DNA from: Anaeromicrobium sp.
GTDB taxonomy: Bacteria; Bacillota; Clostridia; Peptostreptococcales; Thermotaleaceae
Length of the DNA stretch: 38,837 nt
Direction: 5' to 3'
Assembly (NCBI RefSeq): GCF_025210435.1
Contig: NZ_JAOART010000064.1
Location: forward strand, 1-38,837
Shown here: one piece after another, positions 11,746 through 36,948 of the stretch
Layout of the letters: each line of letters opens with the position of its first letter
How positions within the stretch are numbered: the stretch's first letter is position 1
Translations under genes and position numbers: made by a program
Notes under the pieces: generated by a model
The model's input: the letters and a program-made list of their open reading frames with translations, nothing else
Database searches by the model: none
What the model was told of the DNA's origin: nothing

Positions 11746-12726
11746 CTATGCAAATTTTTCATTAGATTGGGCAGCATTACTATAGCGACCACACTTATCT
11801 CCCCAATTGGATATTAATTTATCATCCTTATAAAATTTAACTACTTCACATAAATTTGGACAATTGTTACATTCGAAAGTACTAACCGTATAGTCACTAT
11901 TAGCTATGTCAAAACCAGAGAAATTAGTTCTTTTAGTTTTTGCAACTTCTTCCTTTGCAAGGAGGGCCACACCTACGGCTCCCATCACGTGGTGATAGGG
12001 GGGGACTAGGATTTTTTCTCCTAGTAATTCCTCAAAGGCTCGTACTATGCCCTTATTAGCAGCCACTCCTCCTTGAAATACTATGGGTCCATTTAGGGTT
12101 TTGCCCTTTCCAAGATTATTTAAGTAGTTTCTGGCTAGGGCTTCGCAAAGACCGTTTATTATATCCTCTTGATTATGGCCAAGTTGTTGTTTGTGGATCA
12201 TATCTGATTCAGCAAAAACGGCACATCTACCTGCTATTCTAATTTTTGATTTTGAATTAAGGGCCATATGACCAAAATCTTCTATGGGTATTCCAAGTCT
12301 TTCTGCCTGTCTATCCAAAAAGGACCCTGTTCCGGCAGCACACACAGTATTCATACCAAAGTCGTGTAATATGCCATCACGCAAAAGGATTATTTTTGAA
12401 TCCTGACCTCCTATTTCTATGATAGTATTTACATTTGGTACAAAGTGAATGGCAGCACGGGCATGGGCTGTAATTTCATTTTTTACCACATCTGCACCTA
12501 CCATTATTCCACCTAAATTTCTACCACTGCCTGTAGTTCCCACTCCAGAGATATTTAATTCTTCAGTTATATTATCTTTTAATTTTTTCAAACCATCCTT
12601 GATGGTTTTTATAGGATTTCCTTGAGTTCTTATGTAAAGGGAATCGAGGACATTATTTTTTTCGTCTATTAGAACTAAATTAGTACTAACAGAACCAATA
12701 TCAATTCCAAGATATGCTTTTTTCAT
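11746..12726 (-). CDS. Acyl-CoA dehydratase activase (BadF/BadG/BcrA/BcrD-type ATPase)
   Basis: A 326-residue ATPase of the ASKHA (actin/hexokinase) fold. Family members use ATP to push an electron from a [4Fe-4S] cluster into a radical-type dehydratase or reductase. The phosphate-1 loop YLGIDIGSVSTNLVLID opens the protein. IIEIGGQDSKII is the phosphate-2 loop. The cluster cysteines are in NTVCAAGTGSFLD and GRCAVFAESD. FQGGVAANKG is the adenosine loop. A C-terminal tail adds CNNCPNLCEVV...DKCGRY, an extra Cys set seen in the clostridial subgroup. It is the last gene of three that overlap (26 bases with the gene before), so translation is probably coupled. The electron acceptor is unknown. Confidence 0.88.
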   Translation of the reverse strand: MKKAYLGIDIGSVSTNLVLIDEKNNVLDSLYIRTQGNPIKTIKDGLKKLKDNITEELNISGVGTTGSGRNLGGIMVGADVVKNEITAHARAAIHFVPNVNTIIEIGGQDSKIILLRDGILHDFGMNTVCAAGTGSFLDRQAERLGIPIEDFGHMALNSKSKIRIAGRCAVFAESDMIHKQQLGHNQEDIINGLCEALARNYLNNLGKGKTLNGPIVFQGGVAANKGIVRAFEELLGEKILVPPYHHVMGAVGVALLAKEEVAKTKRTNFSGFDIANSDYTVSTFECNNCPNLCEVVKFYKDDKLISNWGDKCGRYSNAAQSNEKFA

Positions 12727-13801
12727 TTTTAAAATTATCCCTCCTGCTTGTTAGAAGATCTATATAGGCTTCAAGCCTAGTTAAATAACCTGCTTCTCCT
12801 GTCATTTCATCTATTATTAAACTAAGTACGGGTATATTATATTTTTCTTGTATATTAGGAAAAAGACTCATGGAAACAATTTCAGGCATACATGAAAAGG
12901 GCATTAGGTGTATTACACCATCCAAATTAGCTTGAGAATAAAGTATGGAATTTCCAATGGTCTCTCTGCAATGGCCTCCTATTCCAGTAGATACAAAGGG
13001 TTTTGCCACCTTTATTACATGGTTATCCTTAAATCCTAATGATCCTAAAACTACATGTTCCCAAAACCATTTTGAAATGGATAGGGATTTATGAACTTCC
13101 ACTCCCATATTGTTTAATTTTTTAGATAGGTTTAAGTTTGAAAAATCGTCAATTACAGTGTAAATTTCTCCCACAATACCTATTTTTATAGGGTTAGCAT
13201 TTTTATTTAAATTAAACTTACTTAACTTATTTTTAGCAATTTTAACTTTTTTAAACATTTCTTTTGTACCATATGAATTTTCTAAATCAGTTTTTAATTC
13301 ATGAAAAAATTCATGGAGGGGAAAATCACAATAGGGTGAATTTTTTAAAATCCAATCTTCTATGTATTCTAATTCCCTAAGTATATTAAGGGCCCTTAAT
13401 ACAACTTTAGATATTTTTATAGGATTATTAATAGAAGTCACATTATATATCCTATTGAGAAACTCACCATATTTTTTATCTGGGGCTTCTAATAATACGA
13501 AATCCACATTATGGTTTAAGTCCTTTAGTATTTCCTTTAGAACTTGGCTATAGAGACCAAATCTACAAGGTCCAAAGCTAGTGGTCATAATAACCGTGTC
13601 TGCACCCTGTTCTATGGACTCTATTATATTTCCCAAATTTAGTTTCATGGGAAAACACATGAGTTCAGGAGAATATCGTGTACCTAGTTCTAATGTTCTT
13701 TTACTACTCTTAGGTGGTATTACCACATCCACATTTAAATCTTGGGCCATGGCCTTTACGGGTAAGTACATATTACCCATGTGAGGAAAAGTTAGTTTCA
13801 T
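12701..13801 (-). CDS. 2-hydroxyacyl-CoA dehydratase-like protein (activase-associated component)
   Basis: A 366-residue protein like the HgdB-type C-terminal part of the large clostridial activase-related proteins. Visible motifs include ELGTRYSPELMCFPMKLNLG, TTSFGPCRFGLYSQV, GIVGEIYTVIDDF and HLMPFSCMPEIVS, with Cys positions suited to holding an Fe-S cluster. These are followed by DEMTGEAGYLTRLEAYIDLL, a motif shared with the neighbouring protein. The start has GGAGG 8 bases upstream and overlaps the preceding gene by 29 bases. It probably forms a complex with its two neighbours. Whether it dehydrates an acyl-CoA is not established for this subfamily. Confidence 0.8.
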   Translation of the reverse strand: MKLTFPHMGNMYLPVKAMAQDLNVDVVIPPKSSKRTLELGTRYSPELMCFPMKLNLGNIIESIEQGADTVIMTTSFGPCRFGLYSQVLKEILKDLNHNVDFVLLEAPDKKYGEFLNRIYNVTSINNPIKISKVVLRALNILRELEYIEDWILKNSPYCDFPLHEFFHELKTDLENSYGTKEMFKKVKIAKNKLSKFNLNKNANPIKIGIVGEIYTVIDDFSNLNLSKKLNNMGVEVHKSLSISKWFWEHVVLGSLGFKDNHVIKVAKPFVSTGIGGHCRETIGNSILYSQANLDGVIHLMPFSCMPEIVSMSLFPNIQEKYNIPVLSLIIDEMTGEAGYLTRLEAYIDLLTSRRDNFKNEKSISWN

Positions 13802-14753
13802 AATCTTGCCTCCATTTGATCATATCTATAAAAGCTTCAATCCTAGTATTTAGTCCTGCTTCTCCCGTATGCTCATCTAGGTTGATTAACATAAATCCCT
13901 TCTTTGTATTTCTCCTTATCTTTCTTTCTACTATTTCTGCAATGACAGAGTCAATTCCACAGCCAAAGGATGAAAGATATACTATACCCTGTACTTCATC
14001 CATATTTAGGGCACATAGGGCAGATCCTAGAGTATGTCTAGCTAATGTCCAAAAGATTTTTTTATCCCTATCAAAATCAAGACCTTTAATATGTTTAAAA
14101 TCCATGTTATCCTGGGTGATTACTTGAAAACCAAAGGAATGGATTTTGTTTATTAAGTTCATACTGAGATAGTGATCATAGAGCACATAACTATGTCCTA
14201 GTACTAAAATTTTTTTGGGGAATTCATTTTTAACAAAATCTGTAGAAGATAAGGATTCCCTTAAGGGTAACATATCTAAACTAAATTTATGTCTATAATC
14301 CTTTAAGGCATTTAAACCATCATTAAAAGCATTTTTCAATACTTTTTTATTAGAGGTTATGGGACTACCTATTTCATACACAGTTTTTAAAAGATTACTG
14401 CGATTTTTATGAAAATCCACATTTGTATAAATGGTGGGTGGAAGTTCATTTATAGAACTTTTTACTAGTTCTGGTACGGAGCAGAATTTAGGACATATAT
14501 ATTCACCCTTATTTACACTAGTTAATTTAGGTAAAAATAACATGTCAACCTTATTCTTTAAATTTAAAATATGTCCAAGATAAACCTTTAGGGGAAGACA
14601 CGCTTCATCTACACAATGGAGTGTACCCTTATCTAAAATTTCCTTATTAGTAGGATCAGAAAAGACAACATGGGTACCTAAGGACTCAAAAAATCCTTTC
14701 CAAAGGGGATGATACATGTAATATCCCAATCCTCTAGGAATTCCAATTTTCAT
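13773..14753 (-). CDS. DUF2229-type acyl-CoA dehydratase activase-related protein
   Basis: 326 residues. It begins MKIGIPRGLGYYMYHPLWKGFFESLG, the DUF2229 opening. HCVDEACLPLKVYLGHIL and ICPKFCSVPELV follow with conserved cysteines. VYLSSFGCGIDSVIAE and INLDEHTGEAGLNTRIEAFIDMI match the motif near the end of the next gene product. ATG 14753 is chosen because AAGGTGAT lies 8 bases upstream; the upstream GTG and ATG codons fall in the ribosome site. It is the first gene of the operon. In many clostridia these three pieces are one protein of about 1400 residues; here they are separate. The function of the family is not defined. Confidence 0.8.
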   Translation of the reverse strand: MKIGIPRGLGYYMYHPLWKGFFESLGTHVVFSDPTNKEILDKGTLHCVDEACLPLKVYLGHILNLKNKVDMLFLPKLTSVNKGEYICPKFCSVPELVKSSINELPPTIYTNVDFHKNRSNLLKTVYEIGSPITSNKKVLKNAFNDGLNALKDYRHKFSLDMLPLRESLSSTDFVKNEFPKKILVLGHSYVLYDHYLSMNLINKIHSFGFQVITQDNMDFKHIKGLDFDRDKKIFWTLARHTLGSALCALNMDEVQGIVYLSSFGCGIDSVIAEIVERKIRRNTKKGFMLINLDEHTGEAGLNTRIEAFIDMIKWRQDYETNFSSHG

Positions 14754-14851
14754 AAAATACATCACCTTTTTTATAATTTTTATACTTCTGTAGTATTAAC
14801 ATTTTTTGAAATTATAAACATAAATTACATTTTAAATTGAAATTAATACAT

Positions 14852-20951: not shown

Positions 20952-21018
20952 ACAAGAAGGCCTCTATAAATGGCCTAGAAATTGGGAAGTTATTATGATA
21001 ATATAAAGATGCCAAAAT

Positions 21019-21125
21019 AAAAACACAGTTCTGGTTGGTAGTCCAGACCTATACTTATGTGTAGCAGTAACCTGCCCCCTTTGGGTTGTCCATTTCTGGT
21101 AATTGAATATTTCAAAGGGGATGAC
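21019..21125 (+). ncRNA. yjdF riboswitch (azaaromatic-binding leader RNA)
   Basis: The leader directly precedes a yjdF gene and folds into visible helices: ACACA (21023-21027) with TGTGT (21058-21062), enclosing TCTGG with CCAGA. CCCCTTTG (21076-21083) is exactly complementary to CAAAGGGG (21113-21120), which contains the ribosome site of yjdF. This gives an obvious route for translational control. The yjdF class is known to bind azaaromatic compounds. The call rests on context and fold, as I cannot run a covariance model. Confidence 0.78.
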
Positions 21126-21128
21126 ATT

Positions 21129-21554
21129 ATGAATATGGTAAAATCAAGGTTTAATGTGATGTTTGAAAAGGGTTTTTGGGTTGCATATTTAGAGGTGTTT
21201 CACAAGGATGAATACCAAGTAGGCAGGTATGTGTTTGGACCAGAGCCTACAGAACCGGAAGTCTTTGAGTTTATAGTTAACAATGATTATTCTAGAGTAA
21301 GATTGTCTAGGGCCTTTAAAGAAAAATCAAAGAAGGAACCACAAAGGATAAATCCAAAGAGAAGACAAAGGGAAGTGGCAAAGGAACGGAATAAAAAAAG
21401 CCCATGTACAAAGGCACAGGAGGCCTTGAAAGTCCATATGGAAGAATGGAAAAGAGTTAGTAATAAAAAGAAAAAAGAGGAGAGACATAAGGAAAAAGAA
21501 GAAAGATATTTAAAGAAGCAATTAAAGAAAAAAGAGAAGAAAAAAGGACATTAG
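21129..21554 (+). CDS. yjdF: YjdF family protein (DUF2992), riboswitch-controlled
   Basis: A 141-residue YjdF homologue. The N-terminal half, VMFEKGFWVAYLEVFHKDEYQVGRYVFGPEPTEPEVFEFI, is the DUF2992 core. The C-terminal half is a highly basic, helical tail (KRRQREVAKERNKK...KEKEERYLKKQLKKKEKKKGH), typical of the family and suited to nucleic-acid contact. It is thought to take part in a response to toxic aromatic compounds, but its biochemical role is unknown. The ATG at 21129 follows AAAGGGG, which lies in the riboswitch expression platform. A start further upstream at 21057 would lie inside the riboswitch. A small membrane gene follows after 19 bases. Confidence 0.88.
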   Translation: MNMVKSRFNVMFEKGFWVAYLEVFHKDEYQVGRYVFGPEPTEPEVFEFIVNNDYSRVRLSRAFKEKSKKEPQRINPKRRQREVAKERNKKSPCTKAQEALKVHMEEWKRVSNKKKKEERHKEKEERYLKKQLKKKEKKKGH

Positions 21555-22918: not shown

Positions 22919-23386
22919 TTAAAAATTAATACTTTCTAAATCTATTATGTTATTATCTATTAATTTTTCTGCAACCCATCGAGATACTAAACCAGTAATA
23001 GTAACACAGTGTTTTTTTCTTTCTGGACTGCCAAATTCAAAATTCCTAACTATGACTCTACAACAGGTACTTTTGTATTCTTTCTTTATAAAGTCATGAA
23101 GTTCTGCTGCTAATGGGAACATGGCATCATTCATAGGTTCACCATGATTTCTACCAAAGGCCATTCCTAGGGCCATTTGACCACCACTAACGGCACCACA
23201 TAAGCATCCTGCTTTTCCCATACCCACAGGGAATCCAGATGCCATTTTAGTTATACTTTCATGGAAAGGCCATCCAAGTAATTCATTTATAGTATGAACT
23301 ACAGATTCTGAACAAAAAAACTCTCCCTTTTGGAAATATCCTTCTGCCCTTTGTTGAACTTTGTCTAATAATTCTTGTTTTTCCAT
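22919..23386 (-). CDS. C_GCAxxG_C_C family redox protein
   Basis: 155 residues. Cysteines are spaced as in the family: FFCSESVVHTIN near 25, then MGKAGCLCGAVSGGQMALG near 57-73, STCCRVIV, and a late KKHCVTITG. Family members are small Cys-rich redox proteins often next to transporters or oxidoreductases and may carry an Fe-S cluster. It is the first gene of a two-gene operon with the TDT transporter and divergent from the MocR regulator. GGAGG lies 9 bases before ATG. Confidence 0.88.
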   Translation of the reverse strand: MEKQELLDKVQQRAEGYFQKGEFFCSESVVHTINELLGWPFHESITKMASGFPVGMGKAGCLCGAVSGGQMALGMAFGRNHGEPMNDAMFPLAAELHDFIKKEYKSTCCRVIVRNFEFGSPERKKHCVTITGLVSRWVAEKLIDNNIIDLESINF

Positions 23387-26956: not shown

Positions 26957-27193
26957 ATAGATTTATCATTTTCAAACTTGAGTTATGTGAGCCTACTTCA
27001 GGAAAATATATTGAAAATCTTTTCCACCCAAGTCCTTGTCACAATCGAAAGTGTGAATCTTCGTAGATAGGTTCATGATTCATGTGGGAGTAACATAGGA
27101 TGTTGTGACGTTCCAGGGTTCCAAAAATTTTCAATATATTTTCCTTCGTAGGAAAGTTACTGTATAAATAAAGCTTAGTGTTGATAAATCTAT
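26957..27193 (+). repeat. Family A repeat, copy A5
   Basis: A 237 bp copy. The ends ATAGATTTATCA and TGATAAATCTAT are a perfect 12-base inverted repeat that differs from A2 (ATAGATTTCGTA/TACGAAATCTAT) on both sides together. It ends 45 bases before the aldehyde oxidoreductase start, so the promoter of that gene must lie in or against the repeat. The remaining gap 26831-26956 shows nothing recognisable. Confidence 0.9.
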
Positions 27194-27238: not shown

Positions 27239-29971
27239 ATGTTAAGGAAGGAACTTATTATTAATGGAGAAGAAAAGACCATATTAGTAGAGCCTCATGC
27301 CAGATTATCGGACATACTTAGAAAGCAGATGCTTTTAACTGGTACAAAGGTTGGTTGTAATAAAGGGGAATGTGGTGCTTGTTCTATTATTCTTAACGGA
27401 AAGGTTGTAAGATCCTGTATTACTAGGATGAAGAGAGTTCCAGATGAATCAGAGATTATTACTATTGAAGGGGTAGGGGATAAGGATAATCTTCATCCAC
27501 TTCAAGTAGCTTGGATGGTACATGGTGCTGCTCAATGTGGTTTTTGTACACCAGGATTTATAGTATCAGCAAAGGCTTTATTAGAAGAGAATAACAATCC
27601 ATCAAGGGAAGAAGTTAGAGAGTGGTTCCAAAAGAATAGAAATGTATGTCGTTGCACAGGATATAAACCCCTAGTAGATGCAGTTATGGATGCCGCAAGA
27701 TTAATGAGGGGAGAAATAGAAGTAAAGGATCTTTGGTATGAACTTCCACAAGGAGCTTCCATGTATGGAACAGAGTATGTTCGACCATCGGCCCTAGCTA
27801 AGGTAACTGGTAAGTGGGATTTTGGAGCAGATTTAGGTCTAAAGCTTCCTAAGAATACTCTTCATGCAAAATTAGTACAGGCAAAGGTTTCCCATGCCAA
27901 TATATTATCCATAGATACTTTTGAGGCTCAAAAGGTTCCAGGCGTATATAAGGTTTTAACATACAAAGATGTTAAGGGAACTAATAGGATTAATGGATTG
28001 GCCTTTCCAACTAACAAGGGAGATGGTTTAGATAGACCAATATTATGTGACAAAAAAGTATTTCAATTTGGAGATGCCATAGCCATAGTACTTGGAGAAA
28101 CGGAAAGGGCTGCTAAGGAAGGGGCAGAAAAGGTAAAGGTTCAATTAGAAGAATTACCTGCATATATGAGTGCTCCTGAAGCCATGGATGAAGACGCTAT
28201 TGAAATTCATCCAGGAACACCAAATATCTACTTTGAGAACAAGCTTGTAAAGGGTGAAGAAACAGCTCCTATTATGAAGAGTGCACCATATGTGGTGGAA
28301 GATAGCTTCTATGTTCAAAGACAACCCCATCTACCTATTGAACCAGACGTGGGATTTGCTTATTTAAATGATGAAGGAAAACTTATTATTCATTCTAAAA
28401 GTATTGCCCTTCATTTCCATGCCCTTATGATAGCTGATGGTGTTGGAATGAAAGCTGAAGATGTATTTATTGTTCAAAATAATGCAGGGGGAACCTTTGG
28501 ATACAAATTTAGCCCGACTATGGAAGGTCTATTAGGTGTTGCCACATTGGCTACAAATAGACCTGTATATCTAGAGTTTGATATGTATCAACAAATAACA
28601 TATACAGGTAAAAGAGCTCCATTTTGGACTAATATGAAAATGGCAGCTAATAAGGATGGTAAGATATTGGCTTTAGAGTCTGACTGGAGTGTTGATCACG
28701 GGCCATATTCAGAGTTTGGTGATTTACTTACTATGAGAGGTGTCCAATTTGGTGGAGCTGGATATGATATATCATCCATGAGAGGTAATGGACGTACTGT
28801 ATGTACAAATCATGCCTGGGGATCAGCTTTCCGTGGATATGGTGCTCCTCAAATACTGTTCCCTTCAGAAGTATTAGTAGATGAGTTAGCAGAAAAAATA
28901 GGTATGGATCCCTTTGAATTTAGATATAAAAATGTATATAGAAAGGGAAGTACCACTCCAACAGGTTGTGAACCAGATGTGATTTGTTTACCTGAACTAT
29001 TAGATAAATTGCGACCAGAATATAAAAAAGCCAAAGGAAGGGCTAAAGAAAAGAATGCTAAGAGTAAGGATAAGAAATATGGTGTTGGCCTTGCCCTATC
29101 TATTTATGGTTCAGGGTTAGATGGTGCTGATAGTTCAGAAGCTTGGGCAGAACTTACTCCAAAGGGAGTAACTGTAGGAAATTCATGGGAAGATCATGGT
29201 CAAGGGGCAGATATAGGTACACTAACCTATGCCTATGAAGCTTTAAGACCTTTAAAAATAAGTCCTAAAGAAATTAAGCTAGTTATGAATGATATGACTA
29301 GAACTCCTAATAGTGGACCTGCTGGTGGAAGTCGTTCAAATGTGGTAACAGGTAATGCCACTGTGGCTGCTTGTAGAAATTTAGTTGAAGGAATGAAAAA
29401 GGAAGATGGTACATACAGAACCTATGATGAAATGGTTTCAGAAGGGTTAGATTTAAGATATACGGGTAAATGGACTGCACCATGTACTGATTGTTCTGTT
29501 GAAACGGGTCAAGGTAATCCATTTGCAGCTTATATGTATGGTGTTGTAATGTCAGAAGTGGAAGTAGATCTAAATTCTGGTAAAACCCAAGTAGAAAAGA
29601 TGACCTTATCTGCTGATATAGGTACTATTACTAATAAGTTGGCTGCTGATGGTCAATTATATGGTGGTCTTGCTCAAGGTATTGGTCTAGCCTTAAGTGA
29701 AGATTTTGAAGACTTGAAGAAACACACAACCTTAACAGGATGTGGTATTCCTCAAATTAAGGATGTGCCAGACAATATTCAGTTAATCTATACACAAACC
29801 CCAAGACCAAATGCAGTATTTGGTGCTTCTGGCGCTGGTGAAATGCCCCTTGCAGCTCCCCATGCATCCATAATTAACGCAATTTATAATGCTTCTAATG
29901 TGAGAATAACCCATTTACCAGCTCGTCCAGAAAAGGTATTAGCTGGAATTAAGGAATTAAAGGATAAATAG
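27239..29971 (+). CDS. Molybdenum aldehyde oxidoreductase (Mop-like, xanthine oxidase family)
   Basis: A 910-residue protein with the layout of Desulfovibrio gigas aldehyde oxidoreductase: two [2Fe-2S] domains then the Mo domains, with no FAD domain. It oxidises aldehydes to carboxylic acids in the cytoplasm. The plant-type cluster cysteines are C40, C45, C48 and C60. The second cluster uses C100, C103, C137 and C139; as I recall it, the numbering equals the D. gigas enzyme. The Mo domain shows NAGGTFGYKF, GSAFRGYGAPQ and the catalytic Glu at 868 in GASGAGEMPL. No cofactor-insertion gene is next to it. The ribosome site AGGAG lies 7 bases before ATG. It leads the trs-like cluster, separated from it by repeats A6 and A6b. 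The aldehyde substrate is unknown. Confidence 0.93.
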   Translation: MLRKELIINGEEKTILVEPHARLSDILRKQMLLTGTKVGCNKGECGACSIILNGKVVRSCITRMKRVPDESEIITIEGVGDKDNLHPLQVAWMVHGAAQCGFCTPGFIVSAKALLEENNNPSREEVREWFQKNRNVCRCTGYKPLVDAVMDAARLMRGEIEVKDLWYELPQGASMYGTEYVRPSALAKVTGKWDFGADLGLKLPKNTLHAKLVQAKVSHANILSIDTFEAQKVPGVYKVLTYKDVKGTNRINGLAFPTNKGDGLDRPILCDKKVFQFGDAIAIVLGETERAAKEGAEKVKVQLEELPAYMSAPEAMDEDAIEIHPGTPNIYFENKLVKGEETAPIMKSAPYVVEDSFYVQRQPHLPIEPDVGFAYLNDEGKLIIHSKSIALHFHALMIADGVGMKAEDVFIVQNNAGGTFGYKFSPTMEGLLGVATLATNRPVYLEFDMYQQITYTGKRAPFWTNMKMAANKDGKILALESDWSVDHGPYSEFGDLLTMRGVQFGGAGYDISSMRGNGRTVCTNHAWGSAFRGYGAPQILFPSEVLVDELAEKIGMDPFEFRYKNVYRKGSTTPTGCEPDVICLPELLDKLRPEYKKAKGRAKEKNAKSKDKKYGVGLALSIYGSGLDGADSSEAWAELTPKGVTVGNSWEDHGQGADIGTLTYAYEALRPLKISPKEIKLVMNDMTRTPNSGPAGGSRSNVVTGNATVAACRNLVEGMKKEDGTYRTYDEMVSEGLDLRYTGKWTAPCTDCSVETGQGNPFAAYMYGVVMSEVEVDLNSGKTQVEKMTLSADIGTITNKLAADGQLYGGLAQGIGLALSEDFEDLKKHTTLTGCGIPQIKDVPDNIQLIYTQTPRPNAVFGASGAGEMPLAAPHASIINAIYNASNVRITHLPARPEKVLAGIKELKDK

Positions 29972-29977
29972 AAAATC

Positions 29978-30012
29978 ATTGCAGCCTATGTTTATGTAAA
30001 CATAGGCTGCAA
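29978..30012 (+). terminator. Perfect hairpin after the aldehyde oxidoreductase gene
   Basis: ATTGCAGCCTATGTTTA pairs with its complement, ending AAACATAGGCTGCAAT. It lacks a T-run (AATAAATATA follows), so it may be a weak terminator or an RNA-stabilising 3' hairpin, leaving partial read-through into the next operon possible. Confidence 0.6.
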
Positions 30013-30017
30013 TAAAT

Positions 30018-30254
30018 ATAGATTTCCCAATAAAAAACTGGCTTTATGTGAGCCTACTTCAGGAAAATATATTGAAAATTTTTTCCACCCAAGTCCTTGT
30101 CACAAGCGAAAGTGTGAATCTTCGTAGATAGGTTCATGAGTCATGTTAAAGTAGTATAGGATGTTGTGACGTTCCAGGGTTCCAAAAATTTTCAATATAT
30201 TTTCCCTTGTAGGCAAGTTACTGTATAAAACAAATTCAAAATCAAGAAATCTAT
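30018..30254 (+). repeat. Family A repeat, copy A6
   Basis: 237 bp with ends ATAGATTTC and GAAATCTAT. The long arm GAAAATTTTTTCC pairs with CCAAAAATTTTC, the compensated variant also seen in A3. The inner helix is ACCC/GGGT. Confidence 0.9.
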
Positions 30255-30323
30255 ATAGGTTTATGTGAGCCTATTTTCCTGAGATAGGCCCACATAAATC
30301 TTATTCTGAGTTAATAAATCTAT
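30255..30323 (+). repeat. Family A miniature derivative (A6b)
   Basis: A 69 bp piece in tandem with A6. GGTTTATGTGAGCCTAT pairs with ATAGGCCCACATAAATC around TTTCCTGAG, and it ends AATAAATCTATA. It keeps the outer part of family A and lacks the whole interior. It ends 24 bases before the next gene. Confidence 0.75.
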
Positions 30324-30347
30324 AAAAGAATGTGAAAAGGAAGTTGA

Positions 30348-32624
30348 ATGAGGATGGATTTAGATAAGTTACTGAGTAAACAGGATCTATGTATTACTGA
30401 TAATGCACCACCTTGTAATGGGGCTTGTCCATTACATGTGGATATACTTTCTTTTATAAGGGAAATTAAGGATAAAAATTTTGAGAGGGCCTATAGGATA
30501 TTAAATAAGAAAATACCCTTTACTAGGATAATATGTAGGATTTGTGATCATCCCTGTGAGAGGGTATGTTTGAGAAGGGAATTGGGTGGGCCTATTCAAA
30601 TATCAAAGTTGGAGAAAATAGCCATAGAATATGGGTATACAAAACCTAAGAAGAAATTTGGAATTCCTAGGAAACCTTTTAAAATCGCTGTAATAGGTGG
30701 AGGAATAAGTGGATTGTGTGTAGCCAATGAGTTGGATAAAAAGGGGTATAATGTGACCATATATGAGGCAAAATCTCAACTTGGCGGTAGCCTATGGGAT
30801 TTTCATGAAAAAATTCTTCCAAAGGATATACTAGAAGAAGAAATTAAAGAAATAAGTAAAAAGAAAATCCAAATAAAACTTAATACAGAGGTTGGAAAGG
30901 ATATAAAAATAAATGAAATATTAGGTGAATATGATGGAGTATATTTGGGAACTGGCCTTTGGCCAAAGGAACTTAAAATCAATCCAGTGACCTTTCAAAC
31001 CCAGGTGGATAATCTATTTGCTGGAGGATATGTCTTCAGTGCTAATGATTCTGTAATTGAATCTGTGTCATCTGCCCTAAGGGCAGCCACTTCTATCACT
31101 AGATTTGTAAATAAGAAATCTCTAACGGCAGCTAGGGAAAGGGAAGGTTCTTATGAATCACTATCAAATATGGATATATCACATATTGAACATGTTAGAC
31201 CATATGATTTAAATATGGAAGAGGATCTTAAAGAAAAGGCTTCCCTTGAAGCGGGTAGATGTACCCAGTGTGAGTGCAGAGATTGTGTTAAGGCATGTGC
31301 CCATCTAAATAAATTCAATGTGGATCCCAAAAAGTATATAAGGCATATAAATCATAATGAAAATATTGTACTTGGAAATCATAGGGCCAATAAGATGATT
31401 AATTCTTGTACATTATGTGGTCTATGTGGAGAAGTATGTCCTAATAGCTTAAGTATGAAGGATATAATCATGGAAACAAGGCAAAGTATGGTAAAAAGAA
31501 ATAAGATGCCCCCATCTGCCCATGATTTTGCCTTAAGGGATATGGAATATAATAATAGCCACAATTTTAAGCTTTTAAAACATGGACCAAATATGAAAGA
31601 AAGTGAATATATATTCTTTCCAGGATGTCAACTAAGTGCTTCTGCTCCTTCATATGTGCCTAAGGTTTATGATTATCTTCTGAATAAAATAAAAAAGGTA
31701 GGATTAGGCCTTGGATGTTGCGGTGCACCAGGAGAGTGGTCAGGTAGAATGGATATGTTTAATGAAAATATAGAAAAACTAAAGGATGACTGGATTAAAA
31801 TGGGTAAGCCCATCTTAATACTGGCCTGCTCAACTTGCTATTACATATTTAAAACCTATATGCCTGAAATAAATATAGTATCCCTATGGGATATGATGGT
31901 TGATCTTGGAATCCCATCAGGAAAAAGAGTAGAAAATAAACCTGCTTTAGCTCTTCACGATGCCTGTACAACTAGATATGATAAAAATATCCATGAAAGT
32001 GTAAGAAGAATTATTAAGGACCTTGGATATCATATTGAAGAATTAAATTATTCTAAGGAAAAAACAGAGTGTTGTGGTTATGGAGGATTAGTATATTATG
32101 CCAATAGGGAAATGGCTGAAGATTTTATTGAGAAGAGAATAAATGAAAGTTCTAAAGACTATGTGGCCTATTGTTTCATGTGTAGAGATTTATTTGCATC
32201 AAAGGGAAAAAGAACTCTTCATATTTTAGATCTAATATATGGTGAAAATCTGGACATTCTCTCTCAAAAGAAGGGACCTACCCTTTCAGAAAGACATGAA
32301 AATAGAACCAGATTAAAACTCCATCTATTAAAAACCTTATGGGGAGAAGAAAATCTTCAATTAGATAATAGGGGATTAAATTTGATAATCCCTGAAAATA
32401 CAATGAAAAATATGGAAGATAGATTAATCCTAAAGGAACATATTAATGAGGTTATTGAGTATGGAGAAAAAAATAATAGAAAGTTTTTAAATCCAGAAAA
32501 TAGCCACTTACTTACCTATAAAAAAATTGTGAATGTCACCTATTGGGTGGAATATGAAAAAAGTGAAGATGCCTTTATAATTCACAATGTGTACAGTCAT
32601 AGAATGGAAATATTGGAGGATTAA
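30348..32624 (+). CDS. Flavin/dicluster oxidoreductase with two CCG domains (DVU_1558-like)
   Basis: 758 residues. An N-terminal Cys region (CNGACPLHVDI at 23-33; CRICDHPCERVC at 63-74) resembles the GltD-type Fe-S domain. An FAD fold carries GGGISG at 117-122 but is short and seems to lack the full NAD(P)H domain. Two [4Fe-4S] sites follow: CTQCECRDCVKAC (305-317) and CTLCGLCGEVCP (354-365). Two HdrB/D-like CCG domains have GCCGAPGEW (456-464) with C494/C497, and CCGYGG (575-580) with C609/C612. It probably passes electrons between a flavin and a cysteine-bound cluster, as heterodisulfide reductases do. It is the first gene of a six-gene operon; the next starts 2 bases after the stop. AAGGAAG precedes the ATG. 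Confidence 0.85.
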   Translation: MRMDLDKLLSKQDLCITDNAPPCNGACPLHVDILSFIREIKDKNFERAYRILNKKIPFTRIICRICDHPCERVCLRRELGGPIQISKLEKIAIEYGYTKPKKKFGIPRKPFKIAVIGGGISGLCVANELDKKGYNVTIYEAKSQLGGSLWDFHEKILPKDILEEEIKEISKKKIQIKLNTEVGKDIKINEILGEYDGVYLGTGLWPKELKINPVTFQTQVDNLFAGGYVFSANDSVIESVSSALRAATSITRFVNKKSLTAAREREGSYESLSNMDISHIEHVRPYDLNMEEDLKEKASLEAGRCTQCECRDCVKACAHLNKFNVDPKKYIRHINHNENIVLGNHRANKMINSCTLCGLCGEVCPNSLSMKDIIMETRQSMVKRNKMPPSAHDFALRDMEYNNSHNFKLLKHGPNMKESEYIFFPGCQLSASAPSYVPKVYDYLLNKIKKVGLGLGCCGAPGEWSGRMDMFNENIEKLKDDWIKMGKPILILACSTCYYIFKTYMPEINIVSLWDMMVDLGIPSGKRVENKPALALHDACTTRYDKNIHESVRRIIKDLGYHIEELNYSKEKTECCGYGGLVYYANREMAEDFIEKRINESSKDYVAYCFMCRDLFASKGKRTLHILDLIYGENLDILSQKKGPTLSERHENRTRLKLHLLKTLWGEENLQLDNRGLNLIIPENTMKNMEDRLILKEHINEVIEYGEKNNRKFLNPENSHLLTYKKIVNVTYWVEYEKSEDAFIIHNVYSHRMEILED

Positions 32625-32626
32625 AT

Positions 32627-32836
32627 ATGACATTTAAGAATTATGATGAGGAAATTAAATGGATTTGTTCTAAATGTGGTTCCCCTCTCAAGGAGGAAAA
32701 GGTTAAGCTCATATATTTAGGAGGAGATTTTCAAGTAGAATTATTAAAATGCCCTAATTGTAAATTAGTACTAATTACAGAAAAATTAGCCCAAGGGAAA
32801 ATGCTTTTAGTAGAACAAAATTTAGAGGATAAATAA
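32627..32836 (+). CDS. Small zinc-ribbon redox protein (DVU_1557-like)
   Basis: 69 residues. Two Cys pairs, ICSKCGSPL (about 13-21) and LLKCPNCKLVLI (about 40-51), form a rubredoxin- or zinc-ribbon-like site. The conserved ending (EKLAQGKMLLVEQNLEDK) fits the DVU_1557-type redox protein. It has no catalytic domain and may bind a metal or shuttle electrons for its neighbours. It starts 2 bases after the flavoprotein stop and is followed by the methyltransferase after 13 bases. Confidence 0.8.
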   Translation: MTFKNYDEEIKWICSKCGSPLKEEKVKLIYLGGDFQVELLKCPNCKLVLITEKLAQGKMLLVEQNLEDK

Positions 32837-32849
32837 TAGGGGGAACATT

Positions 32850-33578
32850 ATGTTTTCATGTGGATCTAACTCTGTTTATGAAAGTGAACATATGAGAAAT
32901 GTAACGGGAGATACCATAAGACCAGGTGGATTTGACCTTACAGATAGGGCAGTTCATATATGCAACTTTAAAAATAATCATAGGGTTTTAGATGTGGGAT
33001 GTGGTATGGGTACTACGGTGGCCTACTTAAAGATGAGATACAACCTAGATTCAGTGGGAATTGATCCTTCTAAAAAACTCCTTAAGGAGGGGAAGGTTAA
33101 GAATCCTAATCTAAATCTTTATGAAGGATGGGGAGAAAAACTTCCCTTTAAGAACTGTGAAATGGAGGGAGTATTTTGTGAGTGTACTTTATCCTTAATG
33201 GAAGATAAAGACATGGTTATGAAAGAAATTTATAGGGTCCTAAAGGATAAGGGGTACTTAGCCATTTCTGATGTTTATGCTAGGGAACCTAGATACATAA
33301 ATGAATTGAATGAACTTAATTTAAAAAGTTGTCTAAGGGGAATTCACCATGTGGAAGTTTTAAAGGAAAAACTAATTGAAAGGGGATTTGAGATAAGGTC
33401 CTTTGAAGACCATACAAATTATTTAAAGGAACTGATGGTTAATATTATTTTTCAATATGGTTCCATGAATGTTTTTTGGAATAAAACAGGAAATTGCAAT
33501 ATTGATTCTAATGAATTGAAAAGGATTTTATCAAAGAGTAAAGTTGGATATTTTCTTTTAATTGCTCAAAAAACATAA
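32850..33578 (+). CDS. SAM-dependent methyltransferase (TrsM / DVU_1556-like)
   Basis: A 242-residue class I methyltransferase. Motif I is VLDVGCGMGTTVAYL (about 46-60). The acidic loop GIDPSK follows, then GWGEKLPFKNCEMEGVFCECTLSLMED in the motif II/III region and EIYRVLKDKGYLAISD. The general form resembles the arsenite/ubiquinone-type group, but the Cys pattern of ArsM is not clear. The N-terminus SCGSNSVYESEHMRNVTGDTIRPGG matches what I recall for TrsM-type proteins. The substrate is unknown. AGGGGGAAC lies before ATG. It is third in the operon. Confidence 0.85.
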   Translation: MFSCGSNSVYESEHMRNVTGDTIRPGGFDLTDRAVHICNFKNNHRVLDVGCGMGTTVAYLKMRYNLDSVGIDPSKKLLKEGKVKNPNLNLYEGWGEKLPFKNCEMEGVFCECTLSLMEDKDMVMKEIYRVLKDKGYLAISDVYAREPRYINELNELNLKSCLRGIHHVEVLKEKLIERGFEIRSFEDHTNYLKELMVNIIFQYGSMNVFWNKTGNCNIDSNELKRILSKSKVGYFLLIAQKT

Positions 33579-33590
33579 GGGGGAATTAGT

Positions 33591-34040
33591 ATGAATGAAA
33601 TGGCTTTTCGTATATTTCAACTTGCTTCTAGGGGATACTGCTGTACCCAGATAATGGTCAAATTAGTGTTAGAACAAGAGGAAAGAGAAAATAAAGATTT
33701 AATAAAAGCTCTAAATGGATTATGTGGAGGAATAGGGTCATCAGGAGGAACTTGTGGAGTTTTAACGGGAGGAATTTGTATATTTGGTCTTTATGGTGGG
33801 AAAGAAGATTGTGATAATAATAAGGAAGATTTTAATAATATGATTAAAGAATATATGGAGTGGTTTAAAGAAGAATTTGAAAGTACAGATTGTCTACATA
33901 TAGTTGGAGAACAGCTGTTAGTAGATGAGTCGGGAGAAATATCCTATCCTGTAAAATGTGGAAGCATTATAGAAAAAAGTTTTAATAGGGTTTGGCAGAT
34001 TATGGATGAACATGGTTATGAGTTAGGAGAGAGACAATGA
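33591..34040 (+). CDS. C_GCAxxG_C_C family protein (DVU_1555-like)
   Basis: 149 residues with the family cysteines: YCCTQIMV near 17, LCGGIGSSGGTCGVLTGGICIFGLYGG near 44-70, then DC at about 76, STDCLHI, and VKCGSI. This is the second member of the family in the window (the other is at 22919) and is clearly divergent from it. It likely binds a cluster or acts in electron transfer with the operon's redox proteins. The stop overlaps the next start (ATGA), so translation is coupled. Confidence 0.87.
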   Translation: MNEMAFRIFQLASRGYCCTQIMVKLVLEQEERENKDLIKALNGLCGGIGSSGGTCGVLTGGICIFGLYGGKEDCDNNKEDFNNMIKEYMEWFKEEFESTDCLHIVGEQLLVDESGEISYPVKCGSIIEKSFNRVWQIMDEHGYELGERQ

Positions 34041-35389
34041 TGAAGGGGGAAATCATATTCCAAACAGAAAGCCTTTGTCCCATATGCTTAAAGAAAATTA
34101 AAGCTTACAGATGGAAGGAAGGGGATAGGGTTTATCTAAAGAAAAAATGTGATGATCATGGAGAGTTTAAGACCCTAATATGGAATGGTGACCCTAGTAT
34201 TGATAAATGGATAAGGAAAAAGATACCTAGTAGACCAAAGAAAAGTTTTACGGAGATAGAAAAGGGATGTCCCTTTGATTGTGGAATTTGTAATGATCAT
34301 AGGCAGCATACATGTACAGCTTTAATTGAAGTTACTAATAGGTGTAATTTAGAATGTAGATTTTGTTTTGCTAGCTCAAAAAAAGGAGATCTTCAAGATC
34401 CAAGTCTAGATAAAATAAAATCTTGGTATGAAAGACTTTTAGAAGGAGGGGGCCCTTATAATATACAAATATCTGGAGGAGAGCCTACCCTTAGGGATGA
34501 TTTAGATAAAATAATAGAACTTGGCCATCATATGGGATTTGATTTTATTCAATTAAATACAAATGGATTGAGAATTGCTGAAGATGAGGAGTATGTAAGA
34601 AGATTAAAAAAATCAGGCCTAAATTCAGTTTTTTTACAATTTGATGGTACAAATGACAATATATATAAAAGCCTTAGGGGGAAAAATCTTTTTAAAACTA
34701 AAGTTAAAGCCATTGAAAATTTGGACAAATATAATATAGGAGTTATTCTTGTTCCAACCCTTGTACCCCATGTGAATATGGATAATATAGGAGAGATAAT
34801 TGATTTTGCCATAGACCGTATCCCCCATATAAGGGGAGTACATTTTCAACCTGTTAGTTACTTTGGAAGGTTTACTCCTGAAAGTAATGAAAATACAAGA
34901 ATAACTATTCCAGATATAATAAGGGAAATAGAAAAGCAGACAAGGGGAAGAATCAAAGGAGAAACTCTTAAGGCACCAGGGTGTGAAAATTCTCTTTGTT
35001 CTTTCAACGGAAACTACTTATATAGGGGAAAAAACATATTAAAATCCATATCTAAGGAAAGTTGTTGTGGTGAAGTTCAAAGGGCTGAAGTAGGGGCAAA
35101 AAAGGCTAGGGCCTTCGTGGCTAGAAATTGGAAGCTACCCAATAAGACCTGTAAATGTGGTGAAGATAATTTTCGTGATGTTTCCACCTTCGATGAGATA
35201 TTAAATAACCTAAAAACATACACCTTTAGTATTTCTGGTATGGCCTTTCAAGATGCTTGGAATATTGATTTAGATAGGTTAAAAGATTGTTGTATACATG
35301 TGGTAAGCCAAAAGGGAGATATAATACCATTTTGTGCATACAACCTTACGGACACTAGGGGTAATTACCTATATAGGGGCAAGTGTTGA
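34037..35389 (+). CDS. Radical SAM protein (TrsS / DVU_1554-like) with Tes-like Cys-rich N-terminus
   Basis: 450 residues. The radical SAM cluster is CNLECRFC (C103, C107, C110). The N-terminal 95 residues carry CPIC (14-17), KKCDDHGEF (37-44) and GCPFDCGICNDHRQHTC (77-93). This layout is also found in the tetraether/membrane-spanning lipid synthase type of radical SAM protein. The core has IQISGGEPTLRDDL. Late cysteines (CCGEVQ, TCKCGED, DCCIHV, PFCAYN) could bind further clusters. Related proteins in this neighbourhood are sometimes selenoproteins; here the frame has no internal TGA, so this one uses cysteine. The AGGAGAG site lies 6 bases before ATG. The last base overlaps the CoA ligase ATG. 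Confidence 0.87.
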   Translation: MMKGEIIFQTESLCPICLKKIKAYRWKEGDRVYLKKKCDDHGEFKTLIWNGDPSIDKWIRKKIPSRPKKSFTEIEKGCPFDCGICNDHRQHTCTALIEVTNRCNLECRFCFASSKKGDLQDPSLDKIKSWYERLLEGGGPYNIQISGGEPTLRDDLDKIIELGHHMGFDFIQLNTNGLRIAEDEEYVRRLKKSGLNSVFLQFDGTNDNIYKSLRGKNLFKTKVKAIENLDKYNIGVILVPTLVPHVNMDNIGEIIDFAIDRIPHIRGVHFQPVSYFGRFTPESNENTRITIPDIIREIEKQTRGRIKGETLKAPGCENSLCSFNGNYLYRGKNILKSISKESCCGEVQRAEVGAKKARAFVARNWKLPNKTCKCGEDNFRDVSTFDEILNNLKTYTFSISGMAFQDAWNIDLDRLKDCCIHVVSQKGDIIPFCAYNLTDTRGNYLYRGKC

Positions 35390-36711
35390 TGAATATTACT
35401 CCCCTAGATAAGTGGATAAGAAAAAAGATTGGACATAAAGGCTCTAATGATTTTAGAAGGGAATTAGATAACTATATATTAGATAAACTAAGGGAAAATA
35501 TAGAATATGTAAAAAAAAATAGTGTCTTTTATAAGAATCATTTAAGAGAACTAGGGGAAATATATTCTTTTAATGATTTTGAAAAAATTCCCTTTACTAG
35601 GGATTCCCATATAATGTGTAACCCTAATCACTTTGTTTGTGTGCCACAAAATCATATTAATAGGATAGTTACTTTAAAAACATCTGGAACTACAGGTGAA
35701 AGGAAAAGAATATTTTTCACAAGGGATGATCAAGAATTAACTATTGATTTTTTTAAAATAGGCATGTCAACTTTAGTGCAAAAGGGAGATAGGGTCCTTA
35801 TTTTACTTCCAGGAGAAAGGGAGGGAAGTGTGGGGGATTTACTTAAAAAGGGCCTAAAGAGAATGGGTGTTAAGGCATATATACATGGACCAATATATGA
35901 TCCTGAGAAGGTACTAAAAATAATTAAAAATAAGAAAATAAATTCCCTTGTGGCCATTCCTACTCAAGTCCTTTCCCTTATAAGGAATGAAAAAAATAAA
36001 GATAAGATAAAATTAAAAAGTGTATTATTAAGTACTGATTATGCTCCAAAGGCAGTAATAAATCAAGTAGAAAGGTTTTTTAAATGCAAGGTATATGATC
36101 ATTATGGTATGACTGAAATGGGCCTTGGGGCAGGAGTACAATGTGATGCCTTAGAGGGATTTCATTTAAGGGAAGCTGATTTGTATTTTGAGATTATAAA
36201 TCCTGTCACAAGGGAAGTTGTACCTAAGGGAGAGTATGGGGAAGTGGTGTTTACTACCTTAACAAGAAGGGGTATGCCCCTTATTCGTTATGGTACGGGA
36301 GATATAAGCAGAATTATTAATAAACCCTGTCCCTGTGGCACAGCCCTTAAAAGTTTAGATAGGATAATCTATAGAAGAAAAGGGGCCATTTCCCTTTCAC
36401 AGGGGCACATATTAACTATTGGACAATTGGATGAAATTTTATTTTCAATAAGGGAAATAGGTGATTATGATGGAGTCATGACTAATGATGGAAAAAGGGA
36501 TTGTTTAACAATATATGTGAATATGGAAGATCCTTTGGGTGAAAGGTTATTTCCTCTTATTTATAATAGACTTGAAGAATGTGAAATAATTAAAAAGTTA
36601 ATTAAAGGAGATAAACTTACCCTACATATAAGTATGAAAGGAGAAAGGAAAGATTGTTCTAAGGGCACAGAAAAGCGGAAGATAATAGATAAAAGAATAT
36701 TAAATGTATAG
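35389..36711 (+). CDS. AMP-forming CoA ligase, PaaK-like (DVU_1553-like)
   Basis: 440 residues, the length of phenylacetate-CoA ligases. It would convert a carboxylate, ATP and CoA into acyl-CoA, AMP and PPi. Visible motifs are the phosphate loop TSGTTGERKR (about 96-105), VYDHYGMTEMGLGAG (about 239-253) and LIRYGTGDIS (about 297-306). A small C-terminal domain follows. The substrate acid is unknown. Starts at GTG 35383, TTG 35386 and ATG 35389 are all in frame; ATG is preferred because AGGGG lies 9 bases before it and it overlaps the TGA of the radical SAM gene by one base. It is the last gene of the operon. Repeat A7 follows at once. Confidence 0.88.
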   Translation: MNITPLDKWIRKKIGHKGSNDFRRELDNYILDKLRENIEYVKKNSVFYKNHLRELGEIYSFNDFEKIPFTRDSHIMCNPNHFVCVPQNHINRIVTLKTSGTTGERKRIFFTRDDQELTIDFFKIGMSTLVQKGDRVLILLPGEREGSVGDLLKKGLKRMGVKAYIHGPIYDPEKVLKIIKNKKINSLVAIPTQVLSLIRNEKNKDKIKLKSVLLSTDYAPKAVINQVERFFKCKVYDHYGMTEMGLGAGVQCDALEGFHLREADLYFEIINPVTREVVPKGEYGEVVFTTLTRRGMPLIRYGTGDISRIINKPCPCGTALKSLDRIIYRRKGAISLSQGHILTIGQLDEILFSIREIGDYDGVMTNDGKRDCLTIYVNMEDPLGERLFPLIYNRLEECEIIKKLIKGDKLTLHISMKGERKDCSKGTEKRKIIDKRILNV

Positions 36712-36719
36712 TAAATAAA

Positions 36720-36948
36720 GTCCATGATTTTATGGGGGTTATGTGGGCCTACTTCAGGTAAATGTATTAAAATTTTTTTCCATCGAAGTCACTGTCACAT
36801 GTTAAAGTGTGAATTTTTAAGATAGGTTCACGATTCATGTTGACGAATCATAGGATGTTGTGACGTTCCACGATTCCAAAAAATTTTAATACATTTACCT
36901 TCGTAGGCAAGTTACTGTATGGGTAAAGCTTTAGTTCATAAATTTATA
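36720..36948 (+). repeat. Family A repeat, copy A7 (most diverged)
   Basis: The core boxes are kept (GTGTGAATTTTTAAGATAGG; TGTTGTGACGTTCC). Both arms changed together: GGTAAATGTATTAAAATTTT pairs with AAAATTTTAATACATTTACC. The inner helix is ATCG/CGAT. The outer ends are decayed. The copy separates the trs-like operon from the sirtuin gene and supplies an in-frame ATG (36919) that is probably not the true sirtuin start. Confidence 0.88.

Follow-up and report, generated by a model that had tools for sequence, protein, structure and literature searches.

A seven-gene operon that encodes a molybdenum-dependent aldehyde oxidoreductase (AOR) of the Mop type together with the radical S-adenosylmethionine (SAM) protein TrsS is found at positions 27239-36711 of a contig of Anaeromicrobium sp. 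(NZ_JAOART010000064.1, assembly GCF_025210435.1). The whole contig of 38,837 nt was analyzed and is called the window here, and all coordinates are positions in it. We tentatively read the operon, at a probability of roughly 35%, as an aldehyde-oxidizing electron chain accompanied by a service module that builds the electron carrier or prosthetic group of this chain. In the first module, AOR would oxidize aldehydes, and electrons would leave it via its [2Fe-2S] clusters to reach FAD, Fe-S clusters and CCG domains of a dicluster flavoprotein, and then a small zinc-ribbon protein and a C_GCAxxG_C_C protein. In the second module, TrsS, a PaaK-like ligase and a methyltransferase would build a small, perhaps hydrophobic molecule, which would serve as the electron carrier of the chain or be bound as a prosthetic group by the dicluster and zinc-ribbon proteins. 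TrsS would perform radical chemistry of the kind known from the tetraether lipid synthase Tes, the ligase would adenylate a carboxylate, and the methyltransferase would tailor the product. In most relatives a nucleoside triphosphate (NTP) transferase-HD protein and a CobC-like phosphatase may assist the service module, and the conserved C-terminus of the zinc-ribbon protein may serve for docking or attachment. What we infer here is which way the electrons flow, what is made, and what each protein except AOR does. This reading is favored over a linear pathway, maturation of AOR, supply of electrons to TrsS and synthesis of lipids because Mop and TrsS co-occur almost obligatorily, because genomes with a split operon keep both modules, and because one set of service genes can stand beside several clients; also because the dicluster protein has no NAD(P) domain, the tail of the zinc-ribbon protein is conserved, and TrsS keeps the metal ligands of Tes. 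A narrower claim, that the trs genes make an unrecognized carrier or prosthetic group dedicated to molybdenum-dependent aldehyde oxidation and handled via the C-terminus of the zinc-ribbon protein, is put forward as a doubtful possibility; if such a carrier is made, it would be one more redox cofactor in anaerobic metabolism. The operon occurs widely among anaerobes, acetogens and sulfate reducers included, and the protein families in it bear placeholder names only.

How tightly is AOR tied to TrsS? Among 199 genomes of Desulfovibrionales (the order of G060 and of the Halodesulfovibrio locus L095), 124 have both Mop and TrsS, four have Mop only, three TrsS only and 68 neither (Fisher p 3e-44, without correction for phylogeny). 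Here Mop means a match at E <1e-80 to a fragment of the Desulfovibrio gigas protein and TrsS a match at E up to 1e-60; seven Tes-like matches of <350 bits were dropped, all from genomes without Mop, and two of the retained TrsS (G129 and G252) are fragments below the cut-off. Three of the four genomes that lack TrsS among the 128 with Mop have contig numbers >150, so they may be incomplete. Among 60 relatives of the source genome, itself included, all eight with Mop over the cut-off also have TrsS over the cut-off; G001 and G038 carry TrsS only. TrsS over the cut-off is present in 11 of 39 genomes searched from the order of G260, and four of these 11 (G260, G290, G291 and G292) have the AOR group and the TrsS group at separate places with both of them kept; in the order of G259 it is present in seven of 297 genomes. 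G287 and G283 had also been taken as split genomes and were given up, since they read like contig breaks, and G206 was given up as a TrsS-only genome, since its contig starts 396 bases before the dicluster match and AOR is possibly cut off. Copy numbers differ between the two modules: 11 of the 128 Mop genomes have two to three Mop genes but one TrsS match, and G042 has, in addition to a complete operon, a second set in which AOR is intact, dicluster, zinc-ribbon, methyltransferase and C_GCAxxG genes are present, trsS is broken and no ligase was found. Several AORs for one TrsS, together with this second set, suggest a service module that has multiple clients.

The gene arrangement is also kept over long distances. 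All seven genes lie on the + strand according to the list of open reading frames (ORFs). The AOR gene is followed by the dicluster gene after 376 bases, and from there on the spacings are 2, 13 and 12 bases, then an ATGA overlap, and then a 1-base overlap if the ligase starts at the alternative ATG at 35389; the spacings given in the initial annotation agree with the ORF coordinates. Its gene families were also right, for all seven proteins exceed curated NCBIfam cut-offs and the Pfam assignments agree. The DVU_155x-type order that it named is likewise supported, and the names of the NCBIfam families carry those locus tags; D. vulgaris would have this order from DVU1559 back to DVU1553. An alignment of TrsS was used to scan named genomes and gave at least 588 stretches with relatives, the best 80 loci of which were kept. 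Neighbors were counted by profile hidden Markov models built on the loci themselves, many of which are cut by contig ends: AOR is found in 51 of the 80, the dicluster protein in 63, the zinc ribbon in 65, the methyltransferase in 63, the C_GCAxxG protein in 68 and the ligase in 73. If the count is confined to the 43 loci with >7.5 kb on both sides of TrsS, the numbers are 39, 41, 39, 37, 37 and 40, respectively, and the commonest additional neighbors are XdhC (32), NTP transferase-HD (31), CobC-like phosphatase (29) and MoeA-like proteins (18). When any profile match of at least 15 bits is counted, 45 of the 80 loci have the complete seven-gene set, in identical order in 39. The seven genes recur in the order of the window in Firmicutes, Desulfobacterota, Chloroflexi, Acidobacteria and the alphaproteobacterium Rhodoplanes, and thus the arrangement is not due to chance. 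In a spirochaete metagenome-assembled genome (MAG) the order is kept for AOR, dicluster, zinc ribbon, C_GCAxxG and TrsS; a methyltransferase match is lacking there, and the contig ends before any ligase. The initial annotation had allowed that the neighborhood might not be conserved or that the families might belong to known, unrelated pathways; neither came true.

What lies next to the core? As the initial annotation had said, the NTP transferase and XdhC-type partners are outside the window, where a gene for a Sir2-type deacylase follows the ligase gene; many relatives have XdhC, NTP transferase-HD and the phosphatase there instead, and the two missing partners are near TrsS in most relatives. 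It had also proposed to look elsewhere in this genome, which is 93% complete, for the NTP transferase. Searches with single proteins turned up one ordinary MocA and, scoring under the cut-off of its family, one XdhC-like protein, neither of them on this contig; they did not find the dedicated NTP transferase-HD, whose role may be covered by the ordinary MocA. We also considered whether NTP transferase-HD and the phosphatase belong invariably to the TrsS module. In the split genomes G290, G291 and G292 they do accompany TrsS, but in G260 they accompany AOR, and the plain MocA of this genome also makes the idea doubtful. In a genome from the order of G260, the NTP transferase, HD and histidine-phosphatase domains are fused in one protein (L180:12055-13806), which suggests that these steps act together. 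The ORFs of 90 loci and the window (91 sources) were clustered and one or two members of each cluster were annotated, rarer clusters only in part. Further clusters present in at least four sources are an ABC ATPase (14), molybdate-permease-like proteins (8), an iron-containing alcohol dehydrogenase (8), cysteine desulfurase-like proteins (7), a family of 97-150 aa without a Pfam match (5), ModA-like binding proteins (4), a binding protein with a helix-turn-helix (4) and antisense shadows of core genes. HGD-D and MaoC proteins as neighbors are confined to one to three atypical loci.

The initial annotation had placed the genes in a linear pathway, in which AOR turns a specific aldehyde into an acid or works in the opposite direction, the acid becomes a CoA thioester through the ligase, and the substrate is made or reshaped by TrsS and the methyltransferase. 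We consider this unlikely, although it survives better than the other rivals. The ligase (DVU_1553 family; 35383..36711, 442 aa from a GTG; NF045666, 461 bits against a cut-off of 300) aligns over residues 26-384 with phenylacetate-CoA ligase, its closest solved structure (4R1L, E 2.5e-32), and its SGTTG-like and RYRTGD adenylation motifs are conserved; conservation is concentrated in the N-terminal domain, the C-terminal domain being weakly conserved, and formation of a CoA thioester is a prediction from the family. The iron-containing alcohol dehydrogenase of eight of the 91 sources could supply the aldehyde. At the atypical locus L102 the core stands with NuoE/NuoF-like and CCG proteins and a MaoC-like protein, with HGD-D-cluster and BcrAD-type proteins nearby, and HGD-D proteins are also found at L030; known cases of such proteins act on acyl-CoA. 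In the MAG locus L086, AFOR and a MoeA-like reading frame (seen by eye) precede the core, and Mop over the cut-off is absent from the assembly; the conserved feature may therefore be aldehyde oxidation as such. L086 is, however, a single MAG. Its TrsS groups with that of the Mop-linked locus L097 (support 0.97; deeper nodes 0.32 and 0.52). A swap of Mop for AFOR was examined as a general rule and rejected: the genome of L040 has Mop elsewhere, L182 has an AFOR fragment and Mop on one contig, and only L086 is left. The route from aldehyde to acid to acyl-CoA is not supported as it was stated, since there is no acyl-CoA enzyme among the annotated neighbor families present in at least four of the 91 sources (one of which, that of 97-150 aa, has no Pfam match), since AOR outnumbers TrsS 2-3:1 in 11 genomes, and since the second set of G042 persists with its broken trsS and without a ligase. 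A service module shared by several AORs would explain these ratios and G042 no worse than a linear pathway would.

AOR itself (27239..29971, 910 aa) reaches 1629 bits with NF045668, whose cut-off is 1100, the match covering residues 3-905 and thus the full length. Its Pfam domains (Fer2, Fer2_2, Ald_Xan_dh_C and MoCoBD_1/2) amount to two [2Fe-2S] domains and molybdenum-cofactor domains, and include no FAD domain. The closest solved structures, both full-length relatives, are 1SIJ/1VLB, the D. gigas MOP, and 1DGJ, which we take to be the AOR of D. desulfuricans. The D. gigas gene is 61% identical (tblastn); in the genome where it was found, its product agrees with the D. gigas sequence without a mismatch over 206 residues and matches it from 1 to 907. 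There, the order is MoeA-like, AOR, dicluster, zinc ribbon, methyltransferase, C_GCAxxG, TrsS, ligase and XdhC, and so D. gigas shares with the window both a full-length AOR and the operon around it. What is known from the published enzyme? Aldehyde oxidation has been published for it (PMC3877041), and its crystals contain a pyranopterin cytosine dinucleotide, Fe-S centers and an oxo in place of a sulfido ligand, and no FAD (PMC3877041, PMC10223205). Unlike the operon, the published enzyme is treated alone, with flavodoxin as a putative partner, and the neighbor genes are not mentioned in the relevant parts of these two papers. If the narrower claim about a dedicated carrier or prosthetic group is true, the D. 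gigas enzyme would have been assayed for decades without its true partner. The link also offers an anchor enzyme with structures and assays, so that the roles of TrsS, the ligase and the methyltransferase become directly testable.

This anchor bears on another explanation, by which TrsS, the ligase and the methyltransferase serve maturation, in that they change the molybdenum cofactor or contribute to the assembly of AOR (or of its partner) beyond what the standard cofactor genes can do. It would agree with the commonest extra neighbors, which are molybdenum-cofactor proteins of the XdhC family, MocA-HD and MoeA-like types, and with ModA and ModB in L024. Nonetheless we find it improbable: the D. 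gigas crystals, with their cytosine-dinucleotide cofactor and oxo ligand, show no further modification in the published accounts, which makes the cofactor of AOR an unlikely product of the service genes; moreover G066 has Mop without TrsS, and G259 (L086) has TrsS with AFOR and no Mop over the cut-off.

Where, then, do the electrons of AOR go? The dicluster protein (30348..32624, 758 aa; NF045663, 1004 bits against a cut-off of 530) has Fer4_20, Fer4_17 and two CCG domains in Pfam and a separate C-terminal domain. The GltD-containing chain 9BOV aligns with it in two blocks, 98-290 with residues 17-207 and 453-626 with residues 209-367, and about 160 residues of this chain are absent from it at one point. 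From their position in GltD-like enzymes, we take the absent residues to be the NAD(P)-binding domain. As judged by this alignment, the FAD part is GltD-like and the protein is without an NAD(P)-binding domain, so that the family name 'pyridine nucleotide-disulfide oxidoreductase' is misleading about the acceptor. Because AOR has no flavin domain either, NAD(P) is unlikely as the direct acceptor, and the earlier idea that the CCG flavoprotein takes up the electrons gains support. In L086 the zinc-ribbon protein and the C-terminal domain of the dicluster protein make up one fused chain, the other parts of the dicluster protein not having been found there, and in L194 (the L040 locus) this domain is a separate match. 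The zinc-ribbon protein (DVU_1557; 32627..32836, 69 aa; NF045645, 96 bits against a cut-off of 60) is rubredoxin-like with four cysteines, and its C-terminus is [LMF]E[DE]K in all of 86 selected homologues (80 LEDK, three LEEK, two MEDK and one FEDK); the C-termini of the other six operon proteins vary. The same tail ends 22 matches that reach the end of the profile in later loci, some of them already counted. The C_GCAxxG_C_C protein (DVU_1555, a putative redox protein; 33591..34040, 149 aa; NF045669, 156 bits against a cut-off of 103) keeps C18, C55, C101 and C123 in 60 of 60 homologues. Another protein of this family is encoded at 22919-23386 on the - strand; the gene beside it resembles those of tellurite-resistance/dicarboxylate transporters. 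The same four kinds of redox proteins, by their description, form tandem AOR/CCG/4-Cys/C_GCAxxG sets in C. ljungdahlii, for which an electron carrier was suggested (PMC5640608); TrsS, the ligase and the methyltransferase are not discussed in the relevant section of that paper. A further likeness, in overall logic, is to mycofactocin (PMC3023750), in which a radical SAM protein stands with a small protein of invariant C-terminus and with client oxidoreductases confined to genomes that have the cluster; in the trs system a remote homologue of the small protein has another tail, and Mop is without TrsS in four of 128 Mop genomes. The protein families are, in contrast, unrelated, and the small protein of the trs operon is a folded zinc ribbon. 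TrsS reaches 58 bits with the mycofactocin radical SAM family TIGR03962, far from its cut-off of 265, other mycofactocin families not having been searched for.

It might also be that electrons flow the other way, the aldehyde enzyme and the dicluster protein feeding low-potential electrons to TrsS, with AFOR, NuoEF-CCG or HGD-D/activase as substitutes elsewhere. Aldehyde oxidation has a very low potential, and different redox modules do adjoin the TrsS core in L086, L102 and L030. We regard this as quite improbable, since some genomes have AOR without TrsS and others several AOR copies for one TrsS, and since an enzyme that is abundant enough for purification from D. gigas and is seen in proteomes of D. 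vulgaris, where DVU1559 is listed in the protein tables of two studies (PMC10920352, PMC11784015), would be odd as a dedicated activator.

What, then, is TrsS? The protein (34037..35389, 450 aa; NF045646, 693 bits against a cut-off of 490) has Tes as its second-best family (NF045702, 374 bits, below the cut-off of 450) and the Tes structure 7TOL as its closest solved relative (E 3.4e-86). An AlphaFold2 model is confident (mean pLDDT 87.8, pTM 0.91). When the ligands named for Tes (PMC9433317) are matched by alignment, all are invariant in 37 TrsS sequences: C14, C17, C38 and H41; C78, C82, C85 and H88; C103, C107 and C110; and M402. TrsS thus shares with Tes (GDGT-MAS, MJ0619) the rubredoxin-type CX2CX20CX2H site, the N-terminal CX3CX2C cluster with His, the CX3CX2C radical SAM cluster, and a Met at the C-terminal cluster, a residue described as dispensable for activity in Tes (M439A; PMC9433317). 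C418 and C433, invariant in the same 37 sequences, are probably ligands of the C-terminal cluster, for which C321, in an unaligned region, would be a further candidate. By these residues TrsS is predicted to carry ligands for a rubredoxin-type metal and three Fe-S clusters. On the other hand, TrsS differs from Tes in its score, in its gene partners, in a shorter region before the C-terminal cluster domain, and in Tyr459, which is conserved in 1,000 archaeal homologues (PMC9433317) and aligns with V422 of TrsS; its chemistry therefore need not equal that of Tes. Even if no carrier is made, TrsS would still belong, as a bacterial branch, to the family of enzymes by which archaea join two sp3 carbons in their lipids, and its substrate is probably a different one. 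That TrsS is itself a bacterial Tes-type synthase of membrane-spanning lipids, linked to AOR only incidentally, is very improbable in spite of the close match to the solved Tes, the kept metal ligands and the bacterial homologues without known function noted by the authors of Tes (PMC9433317), in view of its 374 bits against 450, the unaligned residues 310-389, the absence of Tyr459 and the near-obligate co-occurrence with Mop. A pterin reading, which came from a Pfam N-terminal domain named after a pterin methyltransferase, was dropped, since the founding member MJ0619 has been reassigned as a lipid synthase (PMC9433317). As for selenocysteine, an optional feature going by the family name '(seleno)protein', there is no in-frame TGA in trsS of the window, and among the aligned parts of 90 loci one occurs in a broken copy (L033) and none in unbroken copies. 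The methyltransferase (DVU_1556 family; 32850..33578, 242 aa; NF045667, 251 bits against a cut-off of 155) has ArsM-like and UbiE-like families as the next best, and conserves E111 and C112 in 60 of 60 homologues and its RPGG positions in 54-60 of 60.

Several points weigh against the favored reading of a redox chain with its service module. No product, substrate or activity is known for any protein of the operon other than AOR. G066 shows Mop alone, and of 26 TrsS genomes chosen because the surroundings of TrsS are unusual or cut by a contig edge, Mop exceeds the cut-off in 15. Those without such a Mop include the tandem-TrsS lineage G001, G038 and G248, G261 with L102 and its NuoEF-like proteins, G259 with L086 and its AFOR, G293 and G596; also G275, G206 and G601, though these TrsS are at or near contig ends, and G597, whose Mop scores 0.3 bits too low. 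In this genome the searches did not bring up the dedicated NTP transferase-HD. The zinc-ribbon homologues were chosen by similarity to the tailed protein of the window, which favors tailed ones; a remote homologue in L102 keeps the four cysteines and has another tail instead of LEDK, and the conserved tail can be a matter of mere protein docking.

The tandem-TrsS loci deserve a separate word. In the TrsS tree, L102, L030, L029 and L213 fall together with a support of 0.79, and the remaining 109 sequences stand opposite them with a support of 0.72. Two TrsS copies are found in L030 (G001), L029 (G038) and L213 (G248), with a ligase match in L030 and L213, L029 being a short contig. L030, from the genus of the source itself, also has three HGD-D proteins, a BcrAD-type ATPase, a SufBD protein and a methyltransferase. 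Such loci may represent a separate pathway. In the window, the - strand at 11746-14765 has a gene for a CoA-dehydratase-type activase beside two ORFs without an NCBIfam match, possibly an enzyme of the HGD-D type.

The searchable literature, which omits most subscription papers, agrees with the statement of the initial annotation that the DVU_155x families have no defined pathway. Within this reach no paper was found for DVU1551, 1552, 1554, 1555, 1556 or 1557, DVU1553 does not occur in the top-listed matches, and no title on this system came up for aldehyde oxidoreductase combined with radical SAM. DVU1558 occurs once in PMC3114432, the main text of a D. vulgaris transposon study has no DVU155x tag, and among the papers listed the TrsS protein is named in one only, a selenoproteome review, as a table entry (PMC13188914). 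A paper on sigma-54 regulons lists mopR, mop and hyp-moeA in Clostridium with the function 'Unknown' (PMC6615313). This resembles the present system in mop and moeA and in the sigma-54 regulator that follows the operon in clostridial loci such as L036-L038; it differs in that no regulator is adjacent in the window, and mop is likened to the AOR family by name only. A sigma-54 promoter pattern with up to three mismatches has 34 matches in the window, against 42 expected by chance. No Rfam family matches inside the operon at the gathering threshold.

A dispersed, hairpin-forming repeat of about 200 bp surrounds and enters the operon. Copies lie upstream of the AOR gene (26976-27185), between the AOR and dicluster genes (30044-30229) and downstream of the ligase gene (36738-36931), and others at about 121, 8586, 16712 and 18361, so that the window has seven nearly full copies, which are 83-94% identical to that at 26976-27185. 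Other contigs of the genome carry more copies, several of which sit at their ends. The repeat looks like a miniature inverted-repeat transposable element, and it may explain the absence of the usual downstream genes here. Elsewhere in the window, an azaaromatic (yjdF) riboswitch (Rfam, 90.6 bits) at 21007-21109 overlaps the start of the ORF at 21057-21554.

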